The notes under the pieces: model-generated
Told to the model about the DNA's origin: nothing
What the model saw: only the letters and a program-made list of their open reading frames with translations
Database searches by the model: none
Part shown: in pieces, positions 9,554 to 54,388 of the stretch
How the letters are laid out: each line of letters starts with the position of its first letter
How positions within the stretch are numbered: position 1 is the stretch's first letter
Made by a program: the position numbers and the translations under genes
NCBI RefSeq assembly: GCF_020149765.1
Contig: NZ_CP083809.1
Coordinates: 2,418,001-2,482,000 of the forward strand
DNA: 64,000 nt
Direction of reading: 5' to 3'
From: Pantoea agglomerans
Lineage (GTDB): Bacteria; Pseudomonadota; Gammaproteobacteria; Enterobacterales; Enterobacteriaceae

Positions 9554-9641
9554 GGTGAGGTGTCCGAGTGGCTGAAGGAGCACGCCTGGAAAGTGTGTAT
9601 ACGGCAACGTATCGGGGGTTCGAATCCCCCTCTCACCGCCA
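9554..9641 (+). tRNA. tRNA-Ser (anticodon GGA)
   Basis: The 88-nt cloverleaf includes an encoded CCA. The acceptor pairs GGTGAGG with TCTCACC, the anticodon loop is CTGGAAA (GGA, reading UCC/UCU), there is a long class II variable arm, and the T arm is GGGGG-TTCGAAT-CCCCC. Its 3' end is the integration site of the prophage: the last 26 nt are repeated at 51943-51968. Its native downstream terminator and repeats have been moved 42 kb away by the insertion. Confidence 0.97.
9616..9641 (+). other. attL core (3' end of tRNA-Ser)
   Basis: The 26-bp sequence from gggttcgaatcccc to ctcaccgcca is identical at 51943-51968. It covers the T arm and acceptor end, so integration regenerates an intact tRNA. 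Confidence 0.92.
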
Positions 9642-34193: not shown

Positions 34194-34268
34194 TGGCGGG
34201 CAGGGCAGGATTCGAACCTGCGACCAATCGGTTAACAGCCGAACGCACTACCGCTGTGCTTCTCACCC
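34194..34268 (-). tRNA. tRNA-Asn-like gene (anticodon GTT), weak acceptor stem
   Basis: A 75-nt minus-strand sequence folds as a tRNA: D stem GCAC/GTGC, anticodon loop CTGTTAA (GTT, Asn), variable loop TGGTC, T arm GCAGG-TTCGAAT-CCTGC and an encoded CCA. The acceptor pair GGGTGAG/CCTGCCC has one A-C mismatch and two G-U pairs, the anticodon stem starts with a T-T mismatch, and position 8 is A instead of T. It could be a divergent phage tRNA or a decaying one. Between Q and lysis genes, where several lambdoid phages carry tRNAs. Confidence 0.65.
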
Positions 34269-48261: not shown

Positions 48262-48482
48262 GCCCTGAAGCAGAAAACGCACTTCGCTCGGTGGCGCGGA
48301 AATGCCGCGCCGACATTCTGATCGCGACCAAAGGAAAGCCGCGATCGGAGCACGACCGCATCATAACCACCCTTCTCGATAAACACGCCAAAACCGTTCA
48401 ATGCCTCCCGCCAGGCACATTTCCAGCAAAACGCTGGCTGTCCTTCTATGTGCGGCAGGTTGATAAGGAGATAAGACAGTGA
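48258..48482 (+). CDS. Small phage protein (74 aa)
   Basis: MSPEAENALRSVARKCRADI, RIITTLLDKHAKTVQCLPPG, WLSFYVRQVDKEIRQ. Helical and basic, unknown function. Overlaps its neighbours at both ends (ATGA, GTGA), so coupled to the methyltransferase. Confidence 0.68.
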   Translation: MSPEAENALRSVARKCRADILIATKGKPRSEHDRIITTLLDKHAKTVQCLPPGTFPAKRWLSFYVRQVDKEIRQ

Positions 48483-50404
48483 AATACGGCTCTGTTTGCA
48501 GTGGCATAGAGGCTGCCAGTGCTGCCTGGGAGTCACTGGGCTGGAAACCTGCATGGTTCAGTGAAATAGAACCCTTCCCTTCTGCCGTGCTGGCGCACCA
48601 TTGGCCTGAAGTGAGTAACCTGGGTGACATGACAGCCATCGCAGCGCGGATTGCTACTGGCGAAGTGGAAGCCCCGGACATTCTGGTTGGGGGGACACCT
48701 TGCCAGGCCTTTTCAGTGGCCGGTCTTCGAAACGGACTCGAAGACGCACGCGGCCAGTTAACTCTTTCATTCGTGGAATTAGCCAATGCAATCGACACGC
48801 GACGAACCGACAATGAACAGCCACCTGCCATTATCGTCTGGGAAAACGTCCCAGGCGTCCTCAGCAGTAAAGACAACGCCTTCGGATGCTTTCTGGCAGG
48901 ACTTGCCGGAGAAAGCAGTGAGATCCAGCCAGCAGGGGGAAAATGGACAAACGCTGGTTGTGTGTCTGGACCACAAAGGGCTATCGCCTGGCGAGTCCTT
49001 GATGCTCAATTTTTCGGAGTGGCCCAACGCCGCCGCCGTGTGTTCGTTGTCGCAAGTGCTCGAGACGGAGTTGATCCCTCAGCAGTACTTTTTGAGCTCA
49101 ACAGCATGCGCCGGGATACTCCGCCGAGCAGGGAAACGGGGGCGTCAGTTGCCGCCCTTACTGCAAACGGCGTTGGAACGTGTGGCGCAGACGACAATCA
49201 AGGACAGGCGGGACACCTGCTCGCAGCATTCGGTGGAGGAAACCGCAGCGGAGCCATTGATGTCGCCGCCTGCCTGACGGCCAAAGGGCAGCGGCAAGAC
49301 TTTGAAGTGGAGACGTTTGCATTGGCCTTCCCGGAGCGTATGAGCGGAACGCAAGCTGCATCAACAGGAGACCTGTCACCAGCGCTAATGTCACGCAACC
49401 CAACCGCGATCGCCTTCAGCAGTAAGGATTTTGGCGGTGATGCGGCACCTGAGATTTGCCCAACGCTTCGCGCCGGCGGGCACTGTGGGAGCCATGCGAA
49501 CGCCGGAAACCCACCAGCAATATGCATATCGCTTAGAGGCCGGGAAGGCGGTGCTACTGCAGAGATGGGAGATGACCTATCCAACTGTCTGCGTGCCTCA
49601 AGTGGCGGTGGCGATAAGCCTCACGCGCTGGTGAATATGGAAGTCAGGCGCCTTACTCCGGTTGAGTGTGAGCGTCTGCAGGGCTTTCCGGATAATCACA
49701 CGCAAATCCCTTGGCGCGGCAAAGAAACTGAAAACTGCCCGGACGGTCCACGATACCGGTCGATTGGTAATAGCATGGCCGTTCCGGTAATGCGATGGAT
49801 AGGCGAACGCATAGCCGCTGCCCTGCCGGTAGTGAAAACTATTGGCGATTATGGCGGCAGCACAACTCCGCCCGAGCATCGCGACAGCTGGCAGACGCCG
49901 CCGGAGATATTCGCAGCGCTGAAGCGGGAGTTTCGCTTTGTGGCCGATGTGGCCGCCAGCGCAGAGAACCACCTGTTGCCGGTTTACTTCACCGAAAAGG
50001 ATGATGCGCTGGCGCAGGATTGGGCCGGACAACTGCCACTGGGGATCACCTGGTGCAATCCGCCCTATAGCGACATTTCTCCTTGGGTGAAAAAAGCCGC
50101 GGAAGAGTGTCGCAAAGGGATCGGCACCGTGATGCTTGTTCCCGCTGACACTTCGGTCGGCTGGTTCAGCCTGGCACGAAACTCATGCACCGAGGTGCGC
50201 TTCATTATTGACGGCCGCCTCTCGTTTATTCGCGCTGATACCGGCAAACCAGTCAATGGCAACAACAAGGGCTCGATGCTGCTGATCTGGAACCCGTTCG
50301 CCTCAGATTTTGGAATAACCGGGTATGTCTCGCGCGACACGCTGATGGCGATCGGAAGGAAATTATTGTCCGACCGGGAGCCGGCCGACGAGCGCGCCGC
50401 ATGA
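48479..50404 (+). CDS. Fused C5-cytosine and N6-adenine DNA methyltransferase
   Basis: 641 residues, GTG start at 48479. Residues 1-450 form a Dcm-type enzyme: SVCSGIEAASAAW, catalytic Cys75 in GGTPCQAFSVAG, ENVPG (122-126), QRRRRVF (183-189), RRLTPVECERLQGFPD, and GNSMAVPV (430-437). The recognition region (195-385) has repeated TA(N/K)G and Gly-rich turns. Residues 465-641 form a phage Dam-type domain with WQTPPEIF and NPPY (527-530). Methylates phage and host DNA, presumably against restriction. Both halves look complete. Confidence 0.93.
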   Translation: MKYGSVCSGIEAASAAWESLGWKPAWFSEIEPFPSAVLAHHWPEVSNLGDMTAIAARIATGEVEAPDILVGGTPCQAFSVAGLRNGLEDARGQLTLSFVELANAIDTRRTDNEQPPAIIVWENVPGVLSSKDNAFGCFLAGLAGESSEIQPAGGKWTNAGCVSGPQRAIAWRVLDAQFFGVAQRRRRVFVVASARDGVDPSAVLFELNSMRRDTPPSRETGASVAALTANGVGTCGADDNQGQAGHLLAAFGGGNRSGAIDVAACLTAKGQRQDFEVETFALAFPERMSGTQAASTGDLSPALMSRNPTAIAFSSKDFGGDAAPEICPTLRAGGHCGSHANAGNPPAICISLRGREGGATAEMGDDLSNCLRASSGGGDKPHALVNMEVRRLTPVECERLQGFPDNHTQIPWRGKETENCPDGPRYRSIGNSMAVPVMRWIGERIAAALPVVKTIGDYGGSTTPPEHRDSWQTPPEIFAALKREFRFVADVAASAENHLLPVYFTEKDDALAQDWAGQLPLGITWCNPPYSDISPWVKKAAEECRKGIGTVMLVPADTSVGWFSLARNSCTEVRFIIDGRLSFIRADTGKPVNGNNKGSMLLIWNPFASDFGITGYVSRDTLMAIGRKLLSDREPADERAA

Positions 50405-50503: not shown

Positions 50504-50710
50504 ATGAGCCTTGATGTAATGCCCATTTCAGCATACTGCCAAACCACAGGAGAATCGGAGGAAGCCATTAACAAACGGATACAAAGGAAGATCTGGAGGA
50601 TGGGAGTTCACGTATTAAAAGTGGACGGCGTCCGGGAGCGCTGGATAGATACAGAAGAGGTGAACCGATGGGCAAGAAGCAGCAAGGATCCGCTTTACCG
50701 CGCGGAATAA
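50504..50710 (+). CDS. xis: Excisionase
   Basis: 68 residues, aaggag upstream. MPISAYCQTTGESEEAINKR, IQRKIWRMGVHVLKVDGVRE, RWIDTEEVNRWAR form the winged-helix excisionase pattern. Directs the integrase toward excision. Overlaps int by 43 bp. Confidence 0.9.
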   Translation: MSLDVMPISAYCQTTGESEEAINKRIQRKIWRMGVHVLKVDGVRERWIDTEEVNRWARSSKDPLYRAE

Positions 50711-51846
50711 CCGTGCGGCGCCATAAGACTGGCGAAACGCTGCAGCTGACATTTACGTTTAATGGCGTTCTGTGCAGAGAGCCATTGTCGGGGATGGAGG
50801 TGAATGCGAGAAATATAAAGTATGCCGAGCGGTATCTGGGAGAGATTCAGAACCGCATCGCGTCGGGGGATTTTAACTACCTGCAGTACTTCCCCCGTTC
50901 GAAAAAGGCCGCGCTGTTCGGGCATCAGAAGAAGAAAAAAACGGTAAAGGATTACCTTGAGGAGTACCTGGTCATAAGCGAGAACCGCAACCTGTCACCC
51001 TCCACTCTGGATGGCTACAGGAAATGCCTGCGATCGCTCAGGGTGCTTCACAATATCTACGTTACGGAGCTGACGCCGGCGGCGCTAAAAAGCTGGGTAT
51101 CGACGCAAAAGACGAAGCTGAAGACTATTCGAAATCGCCTGTCCTTTTTGCGTAGCGCCATTGATGAAGCGGTAACAGATGGGCTTATCAGTGATAATCC
51201 TGTCGCGCACATCAGCGCATCTCGCTACTTCTCCATCGAGTATGGAAACACTGAGGAGTACGAGGTCGACCCGTTCACGCCGGCAGAAATCAGCATCATC
51301 TATATGCACTGCCTCTACCCACAGTGGAAGGCGACATTCCAGTTTGCACTAAACACCGGCGTTCGCCCTTCCGAATTATGTGCTCTGCGATGGCGGGATA
51401 TAGACTTTGAGAGGAAGACGGCGTTTGTGCAGAACGCCGTTGTTGAGGGGGTGGAGAAATCAACGAAGACGCGCGCCGGCACAAGGAAGATAGATTTGAA
51501 CGAGGAGGCGATCGAGGCGCTCAGCATCATGAAGCAGTTCACGCAGCTGAAGAGCGAGTTTGTATTCGAAGATCCGCGAACCGGCGAGCCGTGGGCTGGC
51601 TCAGATGCTATTCGCCAAAAGGCGTGGCGCATCATCATGCGCGAATCAAAGCTCAGGTATCGCAACCCGTATCAGACGCGTCACACGTTCGCGACGATGC
51701 ATATCAGCTCAGGGGCCAACCTGTTCTGGCTATGCAAGCAAATGGGGCATAAAGGACCGGACATGCTGTTCAGAAACTACGGCTCGTACCTGGTCGATTA
51801 CGATGGGCACCTGTCGAGGCCGGGGATCAAAACCGGAAGCGAATAA
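50668..51846 (+). CDS. int: Tyrosine integrase
   Basis: 392 residues with an arm-binding N-terminal domain (LPRGITVRRHKTGETLQLTF), a SAM-like core-binding domain (about 90-175) and the catalytic domain: Arg in NTGVRPSELCALRW, YQTRHTFATMHIS, MGHKGPDML, and nucleophile Tyr in FRNYGSYL. The usual His of HxxR is Tyr, as in other integrases of this subgroup as I recall. Next to attR; integrates at tRNA-Ser. Confidence 0.95.
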   Translation: MGKKQQGSALPRGITVRRHKTGETLQLTFTFNGVLCREPLSGMEVNARNIKYAERYLGEIQNRIASGDFNYLQYFPRSKKAALFGHQKKKKTVKDYLEEYLVISENRNLSPSTLDGYRKCLRSLRVLHNIYVTELTPAALKSWVSTQKTKLKTIRNRLSFLRSAIDEAVTDGLISDNPVAHISASRYFSIEYGNTEEYEVDPFTPAEISIIYMHCLYPQWKATFQFALNTGVRPSELCALRWRDIDFERKTAFVQNAVVEGVEKSTKTRAGTRKIDLNEEAIEALSIMKQFTQLKSEFVFEDPRTGEPWAGSDAIRQKAWRIIMRESKLRYRNPYQTRHTFATMHISSGANLFWLCKQMGHKGPDMLFRNYGSYLVDYDGHLSRPGIKTGSE

Positions 51847-51866
51847 CGGGGCAATTTAAAGAAAAA

Positions 51867-51885
51867 TGCACGTGTAGTGCACGTG
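51867..51885 (+). other. Integrase arm-type sites, right end
   Basis: Two TGCACGTG copies 11 bp apart, mirroring 9735-9753 at the other end. They lie 21 bp after int and 57 bp before the attR core. Confidence 0.65.
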
Positions 51886-51942
51886 AAAAAGGATCCTTTT
51901 ATGAAGCTATTTAATATCAGAAGGTTACGAAGATATGAACGC

Positions 51943-51968
51943 GGGTTCGAATCCCCCTCTCACCGCCA
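51943..51968 (+). other. attR core
   Basis: 26-bp copy of the tRNA-Ser 3' end. No tRNA body precedes it, so this is the phage-side junction; the host sequence continues with the native terminator at 51980. Confidence 0.92.
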
Positions 51969-51979
51969 CAAATTCAAGA

Positions 51980-52012
51980 AAATGCCTGAACTGACGTTCA
52001 GGCATTTTTTTT
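51980..52012 (+). terminator. Native tRNA-Ser terminator, displaced (first of the family)
   Basis: AATGCCTGAACTGACGTTCAGGCATT, then T6. Near-identical hairpins follow each of the three repeats: 52155-52184 (variant AAAAGCCTGA...), 52330-52362 and 52504-52537. Before insertion this one stood directly behind the tRNA. Confidence 0.85.
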
Positions 52013-52025
52013 ACATATTCTTCGA

Positions 52026-52143
52026 TGAGAGGGGTATGAGAACCCCCGCCGGGGTTCGACAGCGGGCGAAGCACGCTGGACAGCGGAGCCTGCGACGCTG
52101 CCCGCAGGGCGAGCGCAGCGAGTCAATCCCCCTCTCACCGCCA
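52026..52143 (+). repeat. tRNA-linked 118-bp repeat, copy 1 (rtT-like)
   Basis: Begins TGAGAGGGGTATGAGAACCC and ends with the last 19 nt of tRNA-Ser (AATCCCCCTCTCACCGCCA). The two ends can pair (GAGAGGGG with CCCCTCTC), and GC-rich internal inverted repeats suggest a folded RNA. Organisation equals the 178-bp tyrT repeats of E. coli, each beginning with 19 bp of tRNA 3' end, from which rtT RNA is released. Confidence 0.82.
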
Positions 52144-52200
52144 TAATTTCAGAGAAAAGCCTGAGCGAAAGTTCAGGCTTTTTTCGTTTATATCGCTCAA

Positions 52201-52318
52201 TGAGAGGGGTATAAGAACCCCCGCCGGGGTTCGACAGCGGGCGAAGCACGCTGGACAGCGGAGCCTGCGACGCTGCCCGCAGGGCGAGCGCAGCGAGTCA
52301 ATCCCCCTCTCACCGCCA
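52201..52318 (+). repeat. tRNA-linked 118-bp repeat, copy 2 (rtT-like)
   Basis: Exactly 175 bp after copy 1 and nearly identical (TATAAGAACC in place of TATGAGAACC). It also carries the perfect 19-nt tRNA end. Confidence 0.82.
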
Positions 52319-52375
52319 CAAATTCAAGAAAATGCCTGAACTGACGTTCAGGCATTTTTTTTACATATCGCTCAA

Positions 52376-52493
52376 TGAGAGGGGTATGAGAACCCCCGCC
52401 GGGGTTCGACAGCGGGCGAAGCACGCTGGACAGCGGAGCCTGCGACGCTGCCCGCAGGGCGAGCGCAGCGAGTCAATCCCTCTCTCACCGCCA
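52376..52493 (+). repeat. tRNA-linked 118-bp repeat, copy 3 (rtT-like)
   Basis: Exactly 175 bp after copy 2; the tRNA end has one change (AATCCCTCTCTCACC). Followed by the terminator 52504-52537. From there to 52787 there is no clear gene, only a short frame (about 52557-52635) ending QRKAKLESA that looks like a gene remnant. Confidence 0.82.
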
Positions 52494-52787
52494 CAAATCC
52501 AGGAAAATGCCTGAACTGACGTTCAGGCATTTTTTTTACCTGTCCATTAATAAGAGGGCTGGCGAACCAGTCTGTCACGCTCGAAAGATCCACCGATGAG
52601 TACCTGCAGCGCAAGGCGAAGCTGGAGAGCGCATAAGAAGAGCGACGGGATGGTTAATCTGCACTGGCAGAAGCGTGCTGGGTACGAGAAACAGGCACTG
52701 GCTGAAACGATGATGGCGTGTTAAAAAAACGCTCAACGGCTCCGCTTAAGACGCACATCATCCATTAACCAGACCAGGAGAAGTGAA

Positions 52788-53276
52788 GTGAAAATAATCA
52801 CAACCGCAACCGCAAGCCTGTTAATGCTTATGAGCAGCGCTCACGCTGAAGGGCTGACGACCTCAGCGGATGGCAAAAAACTGACCGTCACCTTCGGTCA
52901 GCCCACCATTAAGCAGGTGCTGCACTACCGTAAAATGTACGACAAAAAACCGTTCCCCGATGCCGAGATCTACTATTACGATAACGGCGTCTATAAAATC
53001 ATTTCACAGGGTGAAGACCACTATGGTGTTTACTCCATGCAGGGCAAGTTTGAAGATGAAACCTTCACCGTCCGTTTCATTTCACTCCCTTCAGGCGACT
53101 GGGGTAATAAAACGGCCTTTCATCAGTTAACCTTCGTTCGGGGAGAAAAGCAGAACGTGTTTATTCAGAACGCGATTGTTGATACTGGCGAAGCCATTGC
53201 CCAACAGAACGGCACCTATACCCAGGAAAAAAATACCGTAACAAACCCCATTTCCACCAAATGGAAAGATAATTAA
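52788..53276 (+). CDS. Secreted protein of unknown function (162 aa)
   Basis: Signal peptide MKIITTATASLLMLMSSAHA, mature part about 142 residues and beta-rich (DAEIYYYDNGVYKIISQGED, HYGVYSMQGKFEDETFTVRF, LTFVRGEKQNVFIQNAIVDT). It may adopt a small calycin-like or MoaF-like barrel, a guess from strand pattern. More AT-rich than the core genes. It lies between the tRNA-linked repeats and a degenerate last copy of their terminator, so it was probably inserted there. Confidence 0.8.
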   Translation: MKIITTATASLLMLMSSAHAEGLTTSADGKKLTVTFGQPTIKQVLHYRKMYDKKPFPDAEIYYYDNGVYKIISQGEDHYGVYSMQGKFEDETFTVRFISLPSGDWGNKTAFHQLTFVRGEKQNVFIQNAIVDTGEAIAQQNGTYTQEKNTVTNPISTKWKDN

Positions 53277-53416
53277 TTCTCATCTGACTCTCTGTCCTTC
53301 ACCACATATCACTAACCGAGAGAGGCAGCGCTTTGCTGAGGGTTTATAACCACAGTGGGCCGTGAAAAGATCGCTTTATCGGTCGCCAGCCCTCACACCG
53401 CCCTGCACCTTCAGGA

Positions 53417-53450
53417 AAATGCCTGAACGCAGGTTCAGGCATTTCTCTTT
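53417..53450 (+). terminator. Degenerate last copy of the tRNA-repeat terminator
   Basis: AATGCCTGAACGCAGGTTCAGGCATT then TCTCTTTT, preceded by a decayed tRNA-end motif (CCTCACACCGCC at 53390-53401). It matches the terminators at 51980-52537, about 900 bp beyond the last intact repeat. Confidence 0.65.
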
Positions 53451-53546
53451 TATATACCCCGCTATGCCGCTTAACGGGCCGCCACTGGCGCACACGGGAT
53501 CCGCTCAGTTAACCCTGCGCCAGAAAGCGTGAGTCGGTGCCCATAA

Positions 53547-53599: not shown

Positions 53600-54388
53600 T
53601 CAACCATACGCGTGAAGCGTTCGCTGACACAGCGCCGAGCGCACGCAGTCATCTTTGCCGAAGCGAACAATGCCCACCATCTCGTCCTCTTCGAATCGCG
53701 CCAGCGCGTCCGCAAGACCGGAAGGCACCCCAGCGGGCAAGTCGCACTGGGTAATATCGCCGTTAACAATCACCGTGACGTTTTCGCCAAGGCGCGTCAG
53801 GAACATCTTCATCTGGGCTGCGGTTACGTTTTGCGCCTCATCGAGGATCACCACCGCGTTTTCAAAGGTACGGCCGCGCATATAGGCGAAAGGCGCGATT
53901 TCCACCTTGCCGATTTCGGGTCGCAGACAGTACTGCATAAAGGAAGCGCCAAGACGTTTAACCAGAACGTCGTAGACCGGCCGGAAGTACGGGGCGAATT
54001 TTTCTGAAATATCCCCTGGCAGGAAACCCAGATCTTCATCGGCCTGTAACACCGGACGCGTAACGATAATCCTGTCGATATCCTTATGTATCAGGGCCTC
54101 TGCCGCTTTTGCGGCGCTGATCCAGGTTTTACCGCATCCAGCTTCGCCGGTTGCAAAGATCAGCTGTTTCGATTCTATGGCCTGGAGATAGTGCGCCTGA
54201 GCGTCGTTTCTGGCGGCGATCGGCGAACGGTCGCGCACGTCGCGCGCCATACCGATAGCATCCAGCCCACCCATCTGCACCAGCGAAGTGACCGATTCTT
54301 CTTCGCGCTGACGATGACTGCGAGAGTCACCACGAAGCACCCTTCTGGCTTCACGACGCGCTTTGATCACTGCTTTCTGTCTTCCCAT
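53600..54388 (-). CDS. phoH: PhoH, phosphate-starvation-inducible ATPase
   Basis: 262 residues. A basic N-terminus (MGRQKAVIKARREARRVLRG), then Walker A ATGEAGCGKTWIS, VTRPVLQADEDLGFLPGD, Walker B VVILDEAQN and VNGDITQCDLP. These are the core of the PhoH/RNase-helicase-like family. E. coli PhoH is longer at the N-terminus. Gene order phoH-efeB-efeO-efeU matches E. coli. No clear Pho box found upstream. Confidence 0.93.
   Translation of the reverse strand: MGRQKAVIKARREARRVLRGDSRSHRQREEESVTSLVQMGGLDAIGMARDVRDRSPIAARNDAQAHYLQAIESKQLIFATGEAGCGKTWISAAKAAEALIHKDIDRIIVTRPVLQADEDLGFLPGDISEKFAPYFRPVYDVLVKRLGASFMQYCLRPEIGKVEIAPFAYMRGRTFENAVVILDEAQNVTAAQMKMFLTRLGENVTVIVNGDITQCDLPAGVPSGLADALARFEEDEMVGIVRFGKDDCVRSALCQRTLHAYG

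Follow-up and report, generated by a model that had tools for sequence, protein, structure and literature searches.

The tandem repeats at positions 52026-52493 of the window (the whole 64,000-nucleotide stretch of Pantoea agglomerans DNA analysed here) are, on the evidence of their sequence, a genuine RtT array of the serX type that has been displaced from its tRNA by a prophage. We think it probable that the units are RtT-family cassettes, separated by terminators, of a structured RNA that is normally transcribed with the preceding tRNA. The anatomy of the units, the copying of a tRNA tail, the co-varying structure and the conservation are direct observations. The features of the locus are as follows.

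9554..9641, + strand: tRNA-Ser(GGA), source of the tail (ARAGORN); the attachment core has its left copy in the final 26 nt of the gene (9616-9641)
50668..51846, + strand: tyrosine recombinase (integrase) of the inserted element, open reading frame with PF00589 and PF12167
51943..51968, + strand: attachment core of 26 nt, right copy, bearing the displaced tRNA-Ser tail and identical to 9616-9641
51979..52008, + strand: terminator-like hairpin and T run 5' of unit 1 (sequence, inverted repeat I9; in the terminator scan on the - strand only)
52026..52143, + strand: RtT unit 1, exact tail, RF00391 at 47.0 bits
52152..52185, + strand: terminator-like hairpin 3' of unit 1, of differing sequence (terminator scan, + strand)
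52201..52318, + strand: RtT unit 2, exact tail, RF00391 at 44.7 bits, slightly below cut-off
52329..52358, + strand: terminator-like hairpin 3' of unit 2 (sequence, inverted repeat I10; scan on the - strand only)
52376..52493, + strand: RtT unit 3, one tail mismatch, RF00391 at 44.3 bits, slightly below cut-off
52504..52533, + strand: terminator-like hairpin 3' of unit 3 (inverted repeat I11, T run; absent from the terminator scan)
53600..54388, - strand: phoH homologue (PF02562), the downstream neighbour, as at the serX-type locus of E. coli O111

Sequence and repeat analysis bear out the original prediction of three 118-nt units in tandem at spacings of 175 and 175 nt; over 259 nt, the other two copies are 86% and 90% identical to the first. 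The further claim that each unit ends in the final 19 nt of tRNA-Ser(GGA) is exact for units 1 and 2 and fails by one mismatch in unit 3. Likewise, the predicted near-identity of the terminators describes the hairpins after attR, unit 2 and unit 3, which are almost alike, but not the hairpin after unit 1, which is unlike these. A terminator scan of 51800-52800 returned 7 sites where 1.7 were expected. Since the period equals one unit plus one terminator, the original layout would have been tRNA, terminator and then unit and terminator, repeated.

The tRNA-Ser(GGA) gene now lies ~42 kb from the array, with an integrated element of about 42 kb between them. The two copies of the 26-nt core and the adjoining tyrosine integrase indicate that this element, integrated at the 3' end of the tRNA, is what separates the tRNA from the units; we call it a prophage because its left end is common to contigs of a viral collection. 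Its cargo includes a tRNA-Asn(gtt) (34194-34268, minus strand) whose tail differs from those of the host tRNA-Asn genes, and a 641-residue open reading frame (48479-50404, plus strand) that, judged by eye from its translation, resembles a cytosine DNA methyltransferase with further domains.

Infernal matches the RtT model (RF00391) to all three units at full length, with scores of 47.0, 44.7 and 44.3 bits (E 2.1e-7 to 1e-6) against a gathering cut-off of 45 bits, so the predicted rtT-like nature of the repeats holds. Unit 1 passes the cut-off and units 2 and 3 narrowly miss it, which counts against reading them as RtT RNA. Sub-threshold matches to other Rfam families, MicC, Thr_leader and tmRNA among them, were rejected. 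In the genome as a whole, the RtT search at E up to 1 gave 12 matches, 6 of them above cut-off. The tRNAs next to these 12 are Tyr, Pro(CGG), Pro(TGG), Lys (at two loci), Ser and Arg; we set aside the weakest match (L012, 20.7 bits), which has no tRNA. A scan that used no motif looked for a tail copy in the 1200 nt downstream of each tRNA, allowing up to 2 mismatches of 18, and found one behind 13 of 80 tRNAs, at eight loci. Shuffled tails gave none, and chance tail matches were accordingly rejected as an explanation. With the displaced Ser array, nine tRNA loci in this genome carry tail-copy units.

Two of these, both tRNA-Phe loci, have units that are absent from the RtT search results; one locus has three units (L253:311-776) and the other a single unit (L275:230-376). 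The insert of the Phe units contains CTCGCCCTGCGGG, which is the usual core CCCGCAGGGCGAG in reverse complement. Elsewhere in the genome, a unit between tRNA-Arg(ACG) genes (L254:713-848) keeps tail and anti-tail and seems to be missing the inner helix P2.

The original prediction presented the serine locus as a special case beside tyrT, and this does not stand, because E. coli K-12 has units at serX and RefSeq already labels RtT sRNA beside tRNA-Ser and tRNA-Pro. In K-12 (NC_000913.3), three units with exact tails follow serX (tRNA-Ser GGA) at a period of 181, and the RtT model scores two of them above cut-off, at 46.3 bits. RefSeq annotates "RtT sRNA" next to tRNA-Ser in another MG1655 record (three units) and in an O111 strain, and also near tRNA-Pro; in NC_000913.3 itself neither the three serX units nor the unit between tyrT and tyrV is labelled (L285, L319). 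The serine locus type is therefore already known, and the locus itself is ordinary, another copy of an element labelled by RefSeq in E. coli.

The window array shares with the serX units the tRNA-Ser GGA and the number of units, three, and differs from them in its period (175 vs 181) and in the prophage that lies between tRNA and array, where in E. coli the tRNA is immediately 5' of the units. The phoH gene downstream is common to the window and the serX-type locus of O111 strains, whereas the next gene after the array in the K-12 record is ycdU. Upstream, E. coli has ghrA and the window a different gene, so the argument for a shared ancestry of the arrays consists of the tRNA, the unit type and one neighbour. 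The K-12 tyrT operon, by comparison, has four units, one of them between the two tRNA genes, at 133-138 bits. Like the window units, RtT/rttR of tyrT matches the Rfam model at full length, carries the tail of the upstream tRNA at its 3' end and occurs in tandem copies; the window units differ in their serine rather than tyrosine tail, their inner hairpins, their scores of 44-47 bits and the prophage between tRNA and array.

The rule that joins these loci is that a unit ends like the nearest upstream tRNA. Among 173 distinct tail-bearing stretches, representing 20 tRNA species and limited by design to at most two tail mismatches, the tail is exact in 143, has one mismatch in 21 and two in 9. 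For 45 of these stretches the locus holds tRNAs whose tails differ, and in every one (45/45) the best match is the tRNA closest upstream; the other 128 of the 173 stretches, in which the source of the tail is indistinguishable, lie outside this count. Four Ala stretches of the 173 have no P1 and may be tRNA fragments rather than units. Units also sit inside tRNA operons, between tRNA genes, as at Arg in this genome and at tyrT-tyrV in K-12.

The 5' arm of the unit co-varies with the copied tail. It is the reverse complement of a T-arm, with GA opposite GA mid-way: units 1 and 3 have GAT-GA-GAACC opposite GGTTC-GA, and in unit 2, which reads TAAGAACC, the motif is altered. The longest run complementary to the cognate tail averages 8.25; over 200 permutations the figure is 6.38 (sd 0.10), and the largest value reached is 6.64. 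In this comparison the Ala, Trp, Met and Ser(gct) stretches pair no better with their cognate tail than with others. For 87 representatives with 50 distinct tails (of 88, the Met unit L086 being omitted), pairing at positions 4-11 is 0.634 with the cognate tail and 0.439 with shuffled ones, a value equalled in 0 of 300 shuffles. The excess is concentrated in positions 4-9 (0.84, 0.77, 0.79, 0.70, 0.59 and 0.58, vs 0.56, 0.40, 0.52, 0.45, 0.45 and 0.43 shuffled) and is present to some degree at position 11 (0.50 vs 0.38); these representatives show none at position 10 (0.31 vs 0.32) or at positions 12 and 13. Usually about 8 nt at the 3' end of the unit are unpaired. A tandem GA motif has been reported in RtT, in the available text of PMC7657543, and the GA/GA of the units may well be that motif at a corresponding position.

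In structural terms, helix P1 would form between the 5' arm and the start of the copied tail, over some ten nt, followed inward by GA opposite GA and then by helix P2 (GAACC/GGTTC). The hairpins would be inserted at the closing point of the T-loop, and some eight nt at the 3' end, terminating in CCA, would be left unpaired. Covariation in support of a fold, whose absence would have counted against the original prediction, is present both between 5' arm and tail and in the hairpins of the Ser units. In an alignment of 14 Ser units (three from the window, seven from other genomes and four from viral contigs), 7 of 8 pairs in hairpin 1 and 4 of 5 in hairpin 2 have changed on both sides. For four of five covariation measures none of 500 shuffles reaches the observed value, with the proviso that the structure was drawn on the Ser alignment itself, which biases the comparison in its favour over slid versions; the fifth measure, further pair types, is unexceptional, being reached by 46 of the 500. 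In the same units pairing in P1 amounts to 80%, with a single double change, and in P2 to 92%, with zero double changes.

By folding energy the window units have z scores of -3.13, -3.40 and -2.40. Their minimum-energy folds contain P1 and P2, but in the middle show other pairings than the hairpins supported by covariation, which counts against the proposed structure. Values for whole E. coli K-12 units are -3.37, -2.02 and -2.28; Pro, Lys and Tyr units from the Pantoea genome reach -4.31, -4.20 and -4.01, and a unit from one of its tRNA-Phe loci -3.67. Farther afield, a Neptuniibacter unit has z -2.60, and a Sphingobacterium unit, in which P1 is absent, -1.13. A kink-turn was dropped, since its insert would have to lie on the other side of the GA pairs, and hammerhead and T-box motifs were weighed and dropped as well.

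Relatives of the array are widespread. The RF00391 model has matches in 22 of 40 relatives (E up to 0.001) and, across the order, in 94 of 394 genomes and 37 of 114 genera at E up to 0.01, with 65 of the 394 genomes above cut-off; units at tRNA-Ser(GGA), whose absence from relatives would also have counted against the original prediction, are present there too. A pattern scan of named genomes, in which chance matches were anticipated, gave at least 117 loci, and among the 117 matches listed 61 are tail-confirmed (tail within 2 mismatches of 16), 7 have an upstream tRNA but a poorer tail and 49 have no upstream tRNA. At these loci GATGAGAA...GGTTCGA is present by construction, whereas tail copying and pairing beyond ATCC do not follow from the search pattern. 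By record title, confirmed loci fall in at least eight phyla, one locus (L147) having no phylum in its title: among the matches listed these are Pseudomonadota, Bacteroidota, Verrucomicrobiota, Lentisphaerota, Gemmatimonadota, Neomarinimicrobiota, Saccharibacteria and Gracilibacteria, where Gemmatimonadota and the last three are represented by one MAG contig apiece, that of Gracilibacteria with two tail mismatches. Thus the wider set of tRNA-linked elements that had been envisaged exists, both in this genome, at nine loci, and in these distant relatives. In a Pseudomonadota sample the motif occurs in 22 of 299 genomes, as compared with 3 of 299 for the reversed motif; a check of 30 of its 35 places confirmed 11 of the 22 genomes by tail and did not confirm the other 11. 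When 18 loci without enterobacterial titles were searched with Rfam, RtT scored above cut-off in four (L101, L103, L121, L144).

Another Rfam family, sX4 (RF02223), may be a relative of RtT: in Xanthomonas phaseoli its matches span a tRNA-Ser and the units downstream (L093:3268-3743). An Rfam search of 51000-53500 in the window gave no sX4 match. The family is treated in PMC11124144 and PMC6337395, as far as the available parts of those papers go. In Actinobacillus, RtT RNAs gave Northern signals, according to the accessible text of PMC4986893; the same text places two RtT members, Arrc20 and Arrc21, near other tRNAs (Asn, Lys), which is a likeness to the window, but upstream of the tRNA genes, whereas the window units are downstream, and tail copying is absent from its description of them. 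A supF strain is described as having lost RtT in the portion of PMC12584984 available. For E. coli, effects on the stringent response have been reported. The literature covered describes neither tail tracking nor RtT-like elements beyond the proteobacteria; with subscription papers thinly represented in it, this is weak evidence of absence.

If the units are indeed cassettes of a structured RNA, they would be transcribed and processed and may have a regulatory function. Read-through of successive terminators would yield a ladder of transcripts, and the enzymes that trim tRNA 3' ends might finish the RNA. Recombination between repeats would change the copy number, and gene conversion, selection or both could keep the tail like that of the neighbouring tRNA. 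In the window, the prophage at the 3' end of the tRNA cuts the array from its promoter and has thus probably left it silent, or open to transcription from the prophage side alone.

It is also conceivable, if rather unlikely, that the units are passive DNA repeats, REP-like quasi-palindromes amplified beside tRNAs and homogenised by recombination, with no RNA function. Array copy number does differ among E. coli strains, and rtT is linked to BIME repeats, which it resembles, in the available text of PMC2965389. Hairpins 1 and 2 of the Ser units moreover have zero cells with a one-sided (G-U) change, which suits this reading; over all inserts, G-U makes up 47 of 775 internal pairs, as against 11% when shuffled, a figure that does not separate RNA from DNA selection. 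Against passive repeats, the elements stand behind tRNAs, each tRNA's tail is tracked together with a 5' arm that matches it, and the Ser-unit hairpins show compensatory changes. Control in cis, in which the 5' arm pairs with the tail of the pre-tRNA and slows maturation or tunes read-through, would account for the complementarity of the arm to the cognate tail and for the Cis-reg class of RtT in Rfam. Yet this complement adjoins its own tail within one fold, a terminator stands between unit and tRNA, and 67 of 80 tRNAs, the displaced Ser gene among them, have no copy within 1200 nt, and we regard this reading as very improbable.

Integrative elements offer a further origin: integrases that cross over in the T-loop displace just such tails, insertions long past would have left theirs in place, and the copies might be products or tools of these elements, as spare attachment sites that spare the tRNA. 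The tail of the units is the very fragment displaced by the integrase in the window, and in L247:5170-5764 a prophage left end resembling the one in the window abuts the tail of a unit and not a tRNA. In addition, 9 of 60 rows spread over 5399 E. coli records have array sequence without the 5' part of the tRNA, and at one such locus, in O111:H- 110512, an integrase adjoins two RtT units. These junctions suggest that an RtT unit can act as an attachment site, although the structural evidence does not require such a function. Against an integrative origin, a similar prophage end lies at the tRNA itself in three other contigs (L282, L283, L284) as well as in the window, the insertion into a unit in L247 is the single one observed and comes from a metagenome contig, and a decoy would need neither P1 nor co-varying hairpins. 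The units hold just the last 19 nt and not the full 26-nt attL/attR core, and their insert breaks the T-loop. We consider this origin improbable. The units were also rejected as phage genes: 11 of 31 motif-bearing viral contigs have Ser-tailed units, all within about 1.1 kb of a contig end, which fits host flank at prophage ends. The other viral contigs include one Tyr unit (L245) and one unit-like element with no detected tRNA (L219).

Returning to the RtT-family reading, we find its general rule, that the tail of the nearest upstream tRNA is copied and the 5' arm kept complementary to it, more interesting than the locus itself, and the rule is testable. The RefSeq note on RtT next to tRNA-Pro and tRNA-Ser, 'processed from tyrT transcript', stands against nine loci in this genome that carry the tail of the local tRNA, and the serX and tyrT arrays of E. 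coli K-12 are available experimental material. We put forward only tentatively that RtT forms one branch of a wider class of tRNA-tailed RNAs extending across bacteria, with cassettes standing behind tRNAs of many kinds, each cassette matching the nearest upstream tRNA at its 3' end and having a 5' arm that co-evolves with it. If such a class exists, it would imply a function that needs a tRNA-like 3' end; the machinery acting on tRNA 3' ends might, for example, mature, charge or sense these RNAs.
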